Notes under the pieces: generated by a model
Told to the model about the DNA's origin: nothing
What the model saw: the letters and a program-made list of their open reading frames with translations, nothing else
The model's database searches: none
Translations under genes and position numbers: made by a program
In this document: piece after piece, positions 5,059-10,449 of the stretch
Layout: the number at the start of each line of letters is the position of its first letter
Position numbering within the stretch: position 1 is the first letter of the stretch
Assembly (NCBI GenBank): GCA_029008875.1
Contig: JAQXJP010000042.1
Location: 1 to 64,000, forward strand
Direction of reading: 5' to 3'
Length of the DNA: 64,000 bases
From: Lachnospiraceae bacterium
GTDB taxonomy: Bacteria > Bacillota > Clostridia > Lachnospirales > Lachnospiraceae

Positions 5059-5087
5059 TAGGTATGAGGTCAGAGAGGGGCGGCTTT

Positions 5088-5942
5088 ATGGAGAAGTGGG
5101 ATTTGTACACGAGATATCGGCAGAAAACCGGGGAGGAATATATCAGACAGGACACATGCAGGATTCCGGAGGGGAGATACCATCTGGTGGTTCATGTGTG
5201 GATTCGAAACAGCAAGGGAGAATATCTGATTTCGCAACGGGCTGCAAACCGCCCCACATATCCTCTTATGTGGGAGTGCGTGGGAGGATCGGTTATCGCA
5301 GGGGAAACCAGCTTGGAGGGAGCGCTTCGGGAGACCTTTGAGGAGGTGGGAGTACAGCTTGACCCAAAGCGAGGAAAGATTCTTTTTTCCAAGATAAGGA
5401 ACGATTTCGATGGGAAAAAATTCAGGGATATCATGGATGTCTGGCTCTTTGAATATGATGGGAATGTGGACCTGAAAAACGCCACCACGGATGAAGTGGC
5501 CGACGTGAGATGGATGAAAACTGAGAAAATCAAAGCGTACTATGATATGGGAAAATTGGCGGAGACTTTAGATTATTTTTTCGATGTCATGGATTCTGAA
5601 GAGCCGGATTACTCCGACATTATCGGAAGGGAAGTTGCCGGAACCATCGACCGGCCACTTGGGTCAACGCACCCGAGGCACCCGGATATGGTGTATCCCG
5701 TCAACTATGGGTATGTGGATGGTGTTTTTGCGGGGGACAAAGCGGAGCAGGATGTGTATGTTCTCGGAACAAAGGAGCCCCTGCAGAGCTTTACCGGAAA
5801 GGTGATTGCGGTATATCACAGATTCAATGATATAGAGGATAAATGGATTGTATCCCTTACGGGAGCTGACATCCCGGATGATGCCATCCTGGGGGATATT
5901 ATGTTTCAGGAGCAGTTTTTCTACGGAAAATTGTATCGATAG
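5088..5942 (+). CDS. Nudix hydrolase fused to an inorganic-pyrophosphatase-like domain
   Basis: A 284-residue cytoplasmic protein of two parts. Residues about 30-165 form a Nudix domain of the IPP-isomerase/Nudix type, with the full box starting GGSVIAGETSLEGAL and ending RETFEEVGV (Gx5Ex7REUxEExGU). Residues about 180-284 (IGREVAGTIDRPLGS, YPVNYGYVDGV, VYVLGTKEPLQSF) resemble the core of family I inorganic pyrophosphatase, where the NYGY strand is typical, but most of its acidic metal-binding set is not evident, so this half may be non-catalytic. The substrate is unknown; release of PPi by one domain and its handling by the other is an attractive but untested idea. ATG 5088 has AGAGGGG eight bases upstream; ATG 5064 lacks a site. 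Confidence 0.8.
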   Translation: MEKWDLYTRYRQKTGEEYIRQDTCRIPEGRYHLVVHVWIRNSKGEYLISQRAANRPTYPLMWECVGGSVIAGETSLEGALRETFEEVGVQLDPKRGKILFSKIRNDFDGKKFRDIMDVWLFEYDGNVDLKNATTDEVADVRWMKTEKIKAYYDMGKLAETLDYFFDVMDSEEPDYSDIIGREVAGTIDRPLGSTHPRHPDMVYPVNYGYVDGVFAGDKAEQDVYVLGTKEPLQSFTGKVIAVYHRFNDIEDKWIVSLTGADIPDDAILGDIMFQEQFFYGKLYR

Positions 5943-6050
5943 GCATGAATTTCCTATGAATGTGTACTTGTAATTTGCGACAGAAAATGATATATAATGA
6001 GGTTATGTTGTATATTTATACAGAAAAAAGGAAAGGAAGAGGATAAAACT

Positions 6051-6857
6051 ATGAAAAAGATGAGAAAACAGGCCGCACTTGTGCTTGCGGCGGCAATGAT
6101 GGTTACAATGGCCGGATGTGGAAATTCTGTTCCGGAGAACACGGTGCATTCTGTGGATGATCTGGAGGGCAAGACAATCGGAGTACAGCTGGGAACCACC
6201 GGAGATATCTATGCATCCGACTATGAGGGTGACGAGGCGGGAACCGTCATCGAGAGATACAACAAGGGAACCGATGCTGTGCAGGCATTGAAGCAGGGCA
6301 AGATTGACTGCGTGATTATCGATGAGCAGCCGGCAATGGCTTTTGTTGAGAAGAATGATGATTTGGAAATCCTGGACGATGTATTCGCAGATGAAGAGTA
6401 TGCCATCTGCATTGCCAAGGATAACACGGAGTTGACCTCTGAGTTCAATCAGGCAATTGCGGAACTGAAGGAAGAGGGAACTCTGGATGCGATTATCAGT
6501 AATTATATCGGAGATGACACCAAGGGTAAGACCCCTTATGTGTCTCCGGCAGATGCAGATCATTCCAAGGGAACCCTGTGCATGGCGACCAACGCCGCTT
6601 TTGAGCCCTACGAGTTCTACGATGGGGACAAAATTGTGGGAATCGATGTGGATCTGGCAACTGCAATCTGCGATAAGTTGGGATATGCCCTTGAGGTGGA
6701 GGACATGGAGTTTGACTCCATCATCACTGCTGTTTCCAGCGGAAGAGCGGACTTCGGTGCAGCGGGAATGACCGTGACAGAGGATCGCCTGAAGAATATC
6801 GATTTTACAGAGACTTATACCACAGCGCGCCAGGTTATTATCGTTCGCAAAAATTAA
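6051..6857 (+). CDS. polar amino acid ABC transporter substrate-binding lipoprotein, circularly permuted
   Basis: A 268-residue lipoprotein (lipobox MAGC) that binds a polar amino acid outside the membrane for the permease and ATPase downstream. Its two halves are in reversed order compared with family 3 solute-binding proteins. Residues about 33-165 match the usual C-terminal part (DDLEGKTIGVQLGTTGDIYA up to LKEEGTLDAIISNYIGD). After a linker, about 185-268 match the usual N-terminal part (GTLCMATNAAFEPYEFYDGD, IVGIDVDLATAICDKLG, FGAAGMTVTEDRLKNIDFT), ending where the normal protein crosses the hinge. Total length equals one normal domain, so this is a permutation, not a duplication. ATG 6051 has AAAGGAAGAGG upstream. 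Confidence 0.93.
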   Translation: MKKMRKQAALVLAAAMMVTMAGCGNSVPENTVHSVDDLEGKTIGVQLGTTGDIYASDYEGDEAGTVIERYNKGTDAVQALKQGKIDCVIIDEQPAMAFVEKNDDLEILDDVFADEEYAICIAKDNTELTSEFNQAIAELKEEGTLDAIISNYIGDDTKGKTPYVSPADADHSKGTLCMATNAAFEPYEFYDGDKIVGIDVDLATAICDKLGYALEVEDMEFDSIITAVSSGRADFGAAGMTVTEDRLKNIDFTETYTTARQVIIVRKN

Positions 6858-6929
6858 TTTCAAGGTGGCTGACAGAGACGGCATCCATGCTCTTGTCCGG
6901 ATGGATGCCCATGAGAAGGAGAACGGAAC

Positions 6930-7616
6930 GTGGAGACACTCATACAAAAATTTGTGCAGAATTTTATAGAGAATCAAAGATACCTGTATCTGCTGCGCGG
7001 ATTGGGAAATACCATTATTATCACGGTCTTTGCACTGATTATCGGTGTGGTTATGGGCTTTTTGGTGGCGGTGATTCGCTCCACCCATGACAAGCGCGGT
7101 GGATTGAATTTTGTGAATTTCATCTGCAAGATTTTTCTGACCGTGTGGCGTGGAACCCCCACCGTTGTCCAGGTTATGATTATGTACTACGTGATTCTGG
7201 TATCCGTCAACAACAAAATTCTGGTGGCTGTCATTGCCTTTGGTTTAAATTCGGCTGCCTATGTGGCGGAAATTGTGCGTTCCGGTATCATGTCCATCGA
7301 TGAGGGACAGTTTGAAGCGGGAAGAAGTCTGGGGCTTAATTACGCCCAGACCATGCGGCTTATCATCCTACCCCAGGCATTCAAGAATGTCCTTCCGGCG
7401 CTGGGCAACGAGTTTATCACCTTGTTGAAGGAAACCTCCGTCAGCGGTTACATCGGAATGATGGATTTGACTAAGGGGGCGGATATTATCCGCAGCCAGA
7501 CCTATGAGCCGATCATGCCATTGTTAGGTTGTGCAGCGATTTATCTGGTTTTGGTTATGCTGTTGACCACAGTTTTGCAGAAACTGGAAGGGAGATTGAG
7601 AAACAGTGATAGATAA
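6930..7616 (+). CDS. polar amino acid ABC transporter permease
   Basis: A 228-residue inner-membrane permease of the HisM/GlnP family. It begins [13 protein letters not shown] and has about five membrane segments, the family signature [13 protein letters not shown] in the first half, and the EAA loop [21 protein letters not shown] that docks with the ATPase. The GTG start at 6930 is supported by AGAAGGAG. It lies 72 bases after the binding protein and overlaps the ATPase gene by 11 bases, which suggests translational coupling. A single permease gene implies a homodimeric pore. Confidence 0.95.
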
Positions 7617-8349
7617 GGGGCAAGTCTTAATTGAAGTAAAGAATCTAACCAAATCCTTTGACGGACAGATGGTGTTGAATGGAATTTCCACGCAGATTTG
7701 TCAGGGCGAAGTTGTGGCGATTATCGGTCCTTCCGGCTGTGGCAAGTCCACGTTTCTGCGATCCCTGAATTTGTTGGAGACACCCACGTCCGGCGAGATT
7801 TTGTTTGAGGGAACAAACCTCACTGACAAGAGTGTGGACATCAACAAGGTGCGTCAAAAAATCGGTATGGTGTTTCAGCAGTTTAACCTGTTTCCCAACC
7901 ATACTATCAAGGACAACATTACCCTTGCTCCGGTGACCCTTGGGCTTATGACCAAGGAAGAGGCGGACAAGAAGGCCATGGAACTTCTGGAGAGAGTAGG
8001 GCTCCCGGATAGGGCGAACAGCTATCCCTCCATGCTTTCCGGCGGACAGAAACAGCGCATCGCCATCGCCCGTTCCCTTGCCATGAACCCGGACGTGATG
8101 CTCTTTGACGAGCCCACATCCGCCTTGGATCCGGAGATGGTGGGGGAGGTTCTGGAACTGATGCGGGAGCTGGCTGCAGATGGCATGACCATGGTGGTTG
8201 TCACCCACGAGATGGGATTTGCGCGGGAAGTGGCAAGCCGGGTTATGTTTATCAATGAGGGCGTGATTCAGGAGGAGAATTCCCCCAAAGAATTCTTTGA
8301 AAATCCTCAAAATCAGAGACTGCAGGATTTTCTTTCCAAGGTCCTGTAA
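7606..8349 (+). CDS. polar amino acid ABC transporter ATP-binding protein
   Basis: A 247-residue cytoplasmic ATPase that powers the import complex. Seen: Walker [11 protein letters not shown]-loop [13 protein letters not shown] signature LSGGQKQR, Walker [14 protein letters not shown] and H-loop [10 protein letters not shown], all intact. Full length for the GlnQ/HisP family. GTG 7606 lies inside the end of the permease gene. A strong hairpin terminator at 8380-8411 closes the operon, which consists of binding protein, permease and ATPase. Confidence 0.96.
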
Positions 8350-8430: not shown

Positions 8431-8973
8431 TTAGTAGTTCTCCTCGTGAACTTCGAAGTAGCTCTGGGGATGGTTGCAGGTTGGGCATACATCCGGAGCC
8501 TTGGTTCCCACAACAATGTGTCCACAGTTGCGGCACTCCCAAATCTTTACCTCGCTCTTCTCGAAGACAGCGGCAGTCTCCACATTCTTGAGCAGAGCGC
8601 GATATCTCTCCTCATGATGCTTCTCGATTGCGCCAACCAGTCGGAATTTGGCAGCCAACTCCGGGAAGCCCTCCTCCTCTGCGGTTTTGGCAAAGCCCTC
8701 GTACATGTCTGTCCACTCGTAGTTCTCACCGTCTGCGGCAGCCTCCAGGTTGGCCTTGGTGTCGCCGATTCCGTTCAACTCCTTAAACCACATCTTGGCG
8801 TGCTCTTTCTCATTATCCGCGGTCTTCAAAAATAGAGCGGCAATCTGCTCATAGCCTTCCTTTTTCGCAACAGATGCAAAGTAGGTATATTTATTTCTTG
8901 CCTGTGATTCCCCGGCAAATGCTGCCTCCAAATTCTTCTCTGTCTGTGTTCCTGCGTACTTTCCTTTTTCCAT
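8431..8973 (-). CDS. rbr: possible internally started, stand-alone rubrerythrin
   Basis: Nested in-frame in the fusion gene. The ATG at 8973 ([15 protein letters not shown]) is the normal N-terminus of a 180-residue rubrerythrin and is preceded by AAGGAGGAA (bases 8980-8988) seven bases away, a near-perfect ribosome site in the middle of an open frame. Rubrerythrins detoxify hydrogen peroxide in anaerobes. The most economical explanation is that a separate rbr gene with its own ribosome site was joined by loss of the upstream stop codon. Whether both products are made cannot be told from sequence. Confidence 0.5.
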
Positions 8974-10449
8974 TTTAGGTTCCTCCTTCATGATATCTAA
9001 TGTCACATGTGGTGTGGGTGCTCCGCCTGCATGTGCAATATTCGTGTGTTCTGAAATATCTTCGCTGATGGTGCACAAATCATCCACGGATAGACCATGA
9101 ATATCTTTATTGCCCGTGATTCTTGCAAAGGTTCGCAACTCCTCCGCGGAGCATTTGAGATAATTCTCAATCCGCTTTGCTGCCGTGTCGATGTGTAATC
9201 TCGCCCGCAGGTTCTCATCCTGTGTGGCCACACCCACCGGACACATTCCGGTGCCGCAGATACGGTATTGCTGACAGGCAGCTGCCACCATGGCGGCAGA
9301 GGCAATGGCAACGGCATCGGCACCCATGGCAATGGCTTTGGCAAAATCGGAAGATACCCGAAGTCCGCCTGTGATGACCAGATCAATATCCGAGCCCACA
9401 GAGTCCAGATATTTTCTCGCGCGATAGAGCGCGTAGATGGTGGGGACACTGGTGGAGTCCCGGATGATGGCGGGAGATGCTCCCGTTGCGCCGCCTCGTC
9501 CGTCTATGGTGATGAAATCCGGTTTGGCATAGACGCAGAATTCCAAATCTCTCTCAATGCGTCCGGCAGCAATCTTGATACCGATAGGCCGGCCTTCGCT
9601 TCTTGTCCGAAGCTCCGCCACTAACTTCCGCAAATCCTCGGCATTGTCGATTCCGGGGAACTTGGAAGGGCTGATGACATCCTCACCCAGTGGTTTGTTT
9701 CGAATCTTCGCAATTTCCGGGGTAACCTTGCCGCCCGGCAGGTGTCCTCCCATTCCGGGCTTTGTTCCCTGCCCGATTTTTATCTCGATGGCATCGGAAG
9801 TTTTTAGATTCTCATCGGTTACGCTGTACAGATTCGGCACATACTCAAAGATGTATTTATATGCCGCTTCCTTTTCTTCCGGGAGAATGCCTCCCTCACC
9901 GCTGCACATTGCTGTGCCGGCCGCGGCGCTTCCCTTTGCCATAGCAATTTTGGTCTCCTTGGAGAGCGCGCCGAAGGACATGTGGGAGATATACACCGGC
10001 ATATCAAGCACCATGGGCTTTTGGGCGTGCTTTCCGATCACGGTCCTTAAAGATACCTCCTCATGCTCGCCCAGAGGCATGGGGTTTAATTGTGCCCCCA
10101 ACACAAGCACATCGTCCCAGTTGGGCATTTTCATCCGGGTGCCCATGGCCTCGATGGCTGACTTCCCGGTGACAGCCATCTCATGGATTTCTCTCATGTA
10201 ACGGTAGTCGCTGTCCGTCTTGCGGGTTTCCTTCGGGTAACTCAGATCCAAACCCTCGGCATTTATGGAAGCGGGCCTTTTATCGGGTTCCGGCGGAATG
10301 TCTGTCGCTTGTTTCGGCTTTTCCTGTTCCAGCGGTTCAAACCGCTCCGGCGGCTGTTTGCAGACAGGGCATTCTGTCAATTCGGAAAAGGGCTTGCCCT
10401 CCTTTTCTTCATCGTACACATACCCGCAGACGCTACATTTGTAAACCAT
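8431..10449 (-). CDS. rubredoxin / glutamate-synthase-type FMN domain / rubrerythrin fusion protein
   Basis: A 672-residue three-module redox protein. Residues 1-50: rubredoxin with CSVCGY and CPVCKQ. About 60-480: FMN/Fe-S domain of the glutamate synthase type ([42 protein letters not shown], then a 3Fe-4S cysteine cluster in [16 protein letters not shown]). From Met493: complete rubrerythrin with a diiron four-helix bundle ([28 protein letters not shown]) and its own rubredoxin tail (CRNCGH, CPTCNH). It could pass electrons from the flavin domain to the diiron peroxidase within one chain. A full Shine-Dalgarno AAGGAGGAA precedes Met493, so rubrerythrin may also be made alone. The gene lies next to two Fur-family regulators, as expected for peroxide control. 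Confidence 0.92.

Follow-up and report, generated by a model that had tools for sequence, protein, structure and literature searches.

A circularly permuted family-3 amino-acid-binding protein in an importer operon of a Lachnospiraceae bacterium, and relatives with other segment orders

A stretch of 64,000 nucleotides from a Lachnospiraceae bacterium (GenBank assembly GCA_029008875.1, contig JAQXJP010000042.1; the whole stretch is called the window below) contains at 6051..6857 a gene for an amino-acid-binding protein that is a circular permutant of a canonical family-3 protein, with each segment present once and the order rotated. The segments are set by the two crossings of the chain between the lobes: N is the start of lobe 1, M is lobe 2 and C is the end of lobe 1, and canonical proteins have the order N-M-C. 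In the protein encoded here M opens the mature chain and N closes it. We put at roughly 0.85 the probability that the protein, with its chain circularly permuted, functions as an amino-acid receptor of an ATP-binding cassette (ABC) importer.

The reading frame is open from the ATG at 6051 to the stop at 6857. There is an alternative in-frame ATG at 5997; the signal peptide begins at 6051, and a purine-rich stretch lies ahead of this position. The Pfam profile SBP_bac_3 (PF00497) matches the protein with 121.7 bits, above its cut-off of 26.4, and does so in two stretches, with the start of the profile falling on residues 178-268. The same swapped pairs were obtained from NCBIfam and from PDB sequence searches, residues 6-104 of the AncQR chain pairing with residues 170-267 of the query and residues 107-232 with residues 30-154. 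Together with hidden Markov models (HMMs) of the segments, these matches bear out the original prediction, made on this DNA without database searches, that the C-terminal half comes first and the N-terminal half last within one domain. The break had been placed at the inter-lobe hinge, and it is indeed the first crossing that is cut, where canonical relatives join N to M by 6-8 residues. Between M and C there is one residue, as in many canonical relatives, and over the re-ordered segments the protein is 67% identical to a canonical homologue (L110).

The window has 1,825 stop-to-stop stretches in its six frames, and the segment HMMs run on all of these (E up to 10) matched M, C and N exactly once each, with no further copy of any of them. 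A second copy of either half, named in the prediction as the sign of a truncated tandem, is thus absent from the window, and since each part is single there we do not regard the protein as one. A repeat search reported no direct or inverted repeats for 5900-7000. Three Pfam families are matched in all (SBP_bac_3, Lig_chan-Glu_bd and NMT1); there is no class I (Peripla_BP) family among the Pfam matches, and no OpuAC or betaine-binding family among the Pfam or NCBIfam matches at E up to 0.001. The protein falls below the NCBIfam equivalog cut-offs of GlnH, ArtI, ArtJ, ArgT and HisJ (112.3 against 303 for GlnH, 88.9 against 510 for ArtJ), though these models are in canonical order and so biased against a permuted member. 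The gene sits in an operon with a permease of the polar-amino-acid type and an ATPase (Table 1).

Table 1. Positions in the window of the permuted receptor gene, its parts and its operon partners.
Feature	Position	Strand	Evidence
Permuted family-3 (SBP_bac_3) amino-acid-binding lipoprotein, 268 residues, order M-C-linker-N	6051..6857	+	Pfam, NCBIfam and PDB sequence matches, segment HMMs
Signal peptide and lipobox-like MAGC, Cys being residue 23	6051..6119	+	From the translation, without a signal-peptide predictor
Segment M, lobe 2, residues 34-102; canonically middle, here first	6150..6356	+	Segment HMM, E 3.5e-35
Segment C, C-terminal part of lobe 1, residues 104-154	6360..6512	+	Segment HMM, E 9e-26
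Linker, residues 155-172 (18 residues), old C-terminus to old N-terminus	6513..6566	+	Junction lengths
Segment N, N-terminal part of lobe 1, residues 173-266; canonically first, here last	6567..6848	+	Segment HMM, E 3.5e-46
Cognate ABC permease, polar-amino-acid type, GTG start	6930..7616	+	PF00528, 79.8 bits; TIGR01726 above cut-off
Cognate ABC ATPase, GlnQ-like, GTG start	7606..8349	+	PF00005, 137.9 bits; GlnQ model 319.9 bits, below cut-off of 379

Of 224 relatives found by scanning genome contigs, 80 were kept; the counts of relatives below refer to these 80. In every one a single alignment spans the query in the query's own order, and the segment HMMs give M-C-N for all 81 proteins of the 80 loci (L046 has two copies). 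This uniformity, the lack of a second copy in the window and the 67% identical canonical homologue support the natural permutation that had been proposed. For this gene the event is not a recent one, nor is it unique. The shared order also rules out an assembly artefact and, with the segment HMM E-values, excludes a chance match. Both halves are under purifying constraint, with pN (nonsynonymous) of 0.053-0.147 against pS (synonymous) of 0.65-0.93, which rules out gene decay. Nearly all the kept relatives are from Lachnospiraceae or Clostridia, and stand-alone receptors of 260-300 residues are the rule. In 79 of them the permuted protein is followed by a permease or fused to one, and an ATPase is present in 70 loci; in five (L066, L069, L072, L078 and L080) receptor and permease form one frame of 507-521 residues. 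The linker is nearly constant at 17-18 residues, with a median of 18 in 126 M-C-N proteins. The lipobox pattern fits 56 of the relatives; among the other 24, judged by eye, 12 have no cysteine and one is ambiguous. The cysteine-free receptors (L012, L020, L028 and those of nine other loci) have AxA-like cleavage sites instead.

The genome (2.63 Mb, completeness 93%) yielded one other PF00497 protein, and its order is M-C-N as well. With this protein, which we call group 2, as query there is a third, weak match in the genome (C11:25384-25932, E 2.6e-4, 23% identity). Full-length group-2 relatives occur in at least six of the 120 genomes of the family sample, and all 16 further loci from the group-2 search (L141-L156) hold canonical N-M-C homologues, which are up to 75% identical to the permuted group-2 proteins over the re-ordered segments. 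For the trees, thinning by identity reduced the number of rows from 185 to 98, and the long-branch rows L113, L129, L170, L127 and L133 were removed before the approximately unbiased (AU) test and for a careful tree, from which the group-2 kin were also removed. The five permuted group-2 rows form a supported group nested among canonical rows (98 in the tree), and a single clade of all M-C-N rows is rejected (p-AU 1.7e-58, 93 rows). As group 2 has canonical near relatives and a single M-C-N clade is rejected, its order arose separately from that of the 6051..6857 protein. Compared with the permease of the genome's own group-2 locus, the permeases of permuted members are 66-85% and those of canonical members 59-68% identical, though no permease was found at the L143 and L155 loci; the homology of these permeases indicates that the change of order took place within one operon family. 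In the group-2 linker the complete old C-terminus runs into the spacer that precedes the canonical N-terminus (L136 compared with L144), consistent with a tandem duplication that later lost sequence at both ends. Among the loci studied, no intermediate of this route was seen.

A second order, C-N-M, was found at all 14 loci fetched from the 14 family-sample genomes with rows starting near query residue 100, and at 12 further loci from the class sample. A further candidate, G069 (L127; search row 125-264), proved canonical in its full sequence. In C-N-M proteins it is the other inter-lobe crossing, the second, that is cut and the first is intact, with 6 residues in L107, L191, L194 and L198, as in canonical sisters, and more in others; most chains stop 2-4 residues past lobe 2, and the linker has a median of 15 residues (26 proteins). 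The proteins L191-L198, apart from L195 and L196, are 75-77% identical to the canonical L202, with which L191, L193 and L194 cluster at 100/100 in the tree. The permease at the L202 locus is 60% identical to the window permease and those at the L107, L191 and L194 loci 59%; none was found at the L198 locus. The careful tree needs four label changes for C-N-M, at least three of them forced by starred branches. In the AU test, however, a single C-N-M clade is not rejected (p 0.101), and the same holds for a single M-C-N clade once group 2 is set apart (p 0.452); we therefore claim as separate origins only the two M-C-N events.

A third order came from the phylum sample, where L212 has the second part of M first, followed by C, N and the first part of M. 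Close relatives of L212 occur in 14 of 97 genomes of its class (E 6.5e-88 or better), and all 12 complete ones have this order, the other two being cut by contig ends; a permease is matched at all 12 of these loci and an ATPase at 11. As this cut lies inside lobe 2, not every permutation separates whole lobes. The permeases of the permuted orders are homologous. Fused forms were also observed. At L128:3106-6537 one frame of 1143 residues comprises two M-C-N units, a permease and an ATPase, in which Walker A and signature motifs can be recognised by eye; one polypeptide would thus make up half of an ABC amino-acid importer. At L209:688-2952 two permuted units are fused to a permease in a frame of 754 residues, from the same phylum but outside the sampled class.

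At least 22 genomes of the family sample contain members of the query's own family (24 full-length rows with E below 1e-98). At least 14 contain C-N-M proteins, at least six contain group 2, and four more, one of them already counted, have distant or fused M-C-N proteins (L113, L128, L129, L130), so that at least 42 of the 120 genomes have a permuted member. Long frames of 600-1,150 residues with several matches were counted as permuted only once fetched and read, because tandem canonical domains give the same rows. The order sample has full-length rows in 7 of its 116 genomes (E 2.4e-68 or better) and the class sample in 16 of its 291 (E 4.2e-72 or better), and the newly fetched loci, six and 13 respectively, are all M-C-N. 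The phylum sample gave a match at E 1e-40 or better in 10 of 249 genomes: three M-C-N (two of them G000 and G160), one M-C-N twice with a permease, one C-N-M, one of the third order and four canonical. The 188 distinct proteins divide into 126 M-C-N, 35 N-M-C, 26 C-N-M and one M-C-N-M-C-N, a tally that comes from searches with permuted queries and gives no estimate of frequency.

The one-copy AlphaFold model of the 6051..6857 protein is confident, also between the lobes (predicted template modelling score, pTM, 0.81). Its matches to known folds run half by half, the best being 6h30, a true tandem of substrate-binding domains (SBD1-SBD2). Many LysR-type, betaine-binding and methionine-binding structures were considered as permuted relatives and rejected; both lobes match in chain order at 3.4-5.5 Å with low identity, and we attribute most of these matches to the resemblance between the two lobes within the fold. 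Arg246 and Asp91 are invariant in 40 sequences, and we take these, the arginine after T-x-x and the aspartate of lobe 2, to be pocket residues of the family-3 fold. Lobe 1 of a canonical protein is split by lobe 2, and in the M-C-N or C-N-M order both lobes are therefore continuous and one crossing is left. The pocket residues and the permease partnership are retained, and probably the fold too, and it would seem most likely for this reason that a polar amino acid is captured and passed to the permease, with the ATPase as motor. We infer the ligand class, the function and the effect on opening; capture would proceed in the usual Venus-flytrap way, but with the tether attached through lobe 2 at the hinge. 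As to origin, a canonical N-M-C gene was probably duplicated in tandem and fused in frame, after which the first N and the last M and C would have been lost and one signal peptide retained. In the M-C-N product the second crossing persists and the first is gone, the old termini being bridged by the linker.

Several observations weigh against this account. The AlphaFold model was built from an alignment of permuted sequences only, and neither the segment HMMs nor the repeat search show a trace of the supposed tandem duplication at the locus. Six loci (L036, L041, L048, L054, L058 and L067) have a permease but no ATPase match despite a full flank; their ATPase may be shared or encoded elsewhere. 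The 12 relatives without a lipobox cysteine are seemingly cut by another peptidase, so a lipid anchor does not belong to the design.

The permutation could be either neutral or useful; the original prediction had suggested that it might alter how ligand is offered to the permease. We lean slightly towards a neutral rearrangement, in which a hinge permutation is simply tolerated and recurs since tandem duplications are common. Canonical and permuted forms serve homologous permeases, the kept segments diverge little, and the chain works with any of three different cut sites, a sign of tolerance more than of a single tuned design. On the other side, long retention under strong selection and the near-constant linkers indicate that the form is maintained, though this does not imply that it is adaptive. 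More doubtful is the proposal that permutation happened four or more times independently (twice to M-C-N, once or more to C-N-M and once by the lobe-2 cut) in homologous importer operons of Clostridia and relatives, with the hinge-cut, single-crossing orders kept for a useful change in hinge dynamics, folding or tethering, or for permease fusion. A domain-swapped dimer, in which lobe 2 closes on lobe 1 of another chain, seems unlikely. The sole remaining covalent crossing would ease swapping, and the T. maritima arginine-binding protein, among the closest solved relatives, is known as such a dimer, but the single-chain model is confident between the lobes and the permease fusions would restrict swapping. 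That the protein is the remnant of a two-domain, GlnP-like protein with an undetected half-copy nearby can be set aside with hardly any reservation since, although the best structural match is a real tandem and tandem permuted forms exist in L128 and L209, the window holds one M, one C and one N, stand-alone forms prevail among the relatives and the one-copy model is confident.

The circularly permuted receptor may be compared with several known systems. Canonical family-3 proteins (GlnH, ArtJ, TmArgBP, AncQR) have the same profile family, segments, pocket residues and operon type; they are N-M-C, whereas here the order is M-C-N and lobe 1 is continuous. The GlnPQ tandem (6h30) presents M-C of one domain and then N of the next, the kind of intermediate able to yield M-C-N, but consists of two complete canonical domains where ours is one. 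Natural permutation of binding proteins as such is already known. PMC4990184 describes TpMglB-2 (Tp0684; 'Type Ic / Cluster Bc') as a naturally permuted, tethered binding protein of an ABC importer, with homologues in Gram-positive gut bacteria. TpMglB-2 is a sugar receptor of class I in which the permutation brings in a fourth crossing, and its permuted part is poorly conserved in sequence; the 6051..6857 protein has no class I family match and loses one of two crossings, and identity to canonical sisters is 67-77% here. PMC2395249 reports a class II permutation between OpuAC and both ProX and molybdate-binding proteins, detected with CPSARST; that pair belongs to the betaine family, has less than 24% identity between partners and was recognised by structure only. 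Permuted halves of the T. maritima ribose-binding protein can fold, as PMC9815098 states, but these are engineered and class I, whereas 6051..6857 is a natural gene. No earlier report of a permuted family-3 amino-acid-binding protein was found in open-licence PubMed Central, with subscription papers outside this scope, and the accessible portions of PMC9732360, PMC12667903 and PMC2861598 contain nothing on such proteins. The amino-acid family, the recurrence, the several cut sites and the close canonical sisters thus look new.

Two neighbouring genes of the window were also observed. A frame of 672 residues at 8431-10449 on the reverse strand has, by eye, a rubredoxin-like N-terminal part, a glutamate-synthase-like part and a rubrerythrin-like C-terminal part. 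At 5064-5942 there is a Nudix hydrolase, whose C-terminal stretch is inorganic-pyrophosphatase-like below the cut-off (20.4 against 23.5 bits).

As a rule, circular permutation is either deduced by comparing distant structures or engineered in the laboratory. The present receptor family has the canonical order beside several permuted ones, at 67-77% identity over the kept segments and with homologous importers, a natural experiment on how far proteins tolerate rewiring of the chain. The family allows the roles of the two hinge crossings, of the nested lobe and of the tether position in a Venus-flytrap receptor to be asked about directly, and also how permutations arise in genomes. For annotation, canonical-order models score the permuted proteins as two pieces, below equivalog cut-offs. 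The recurrence and the multiple cut sites are the surprising part. Should the recurrence be confirmed, textbooks that present natural permutation as a rare and ancient accident would have to make a reservation where this fold is concerned.
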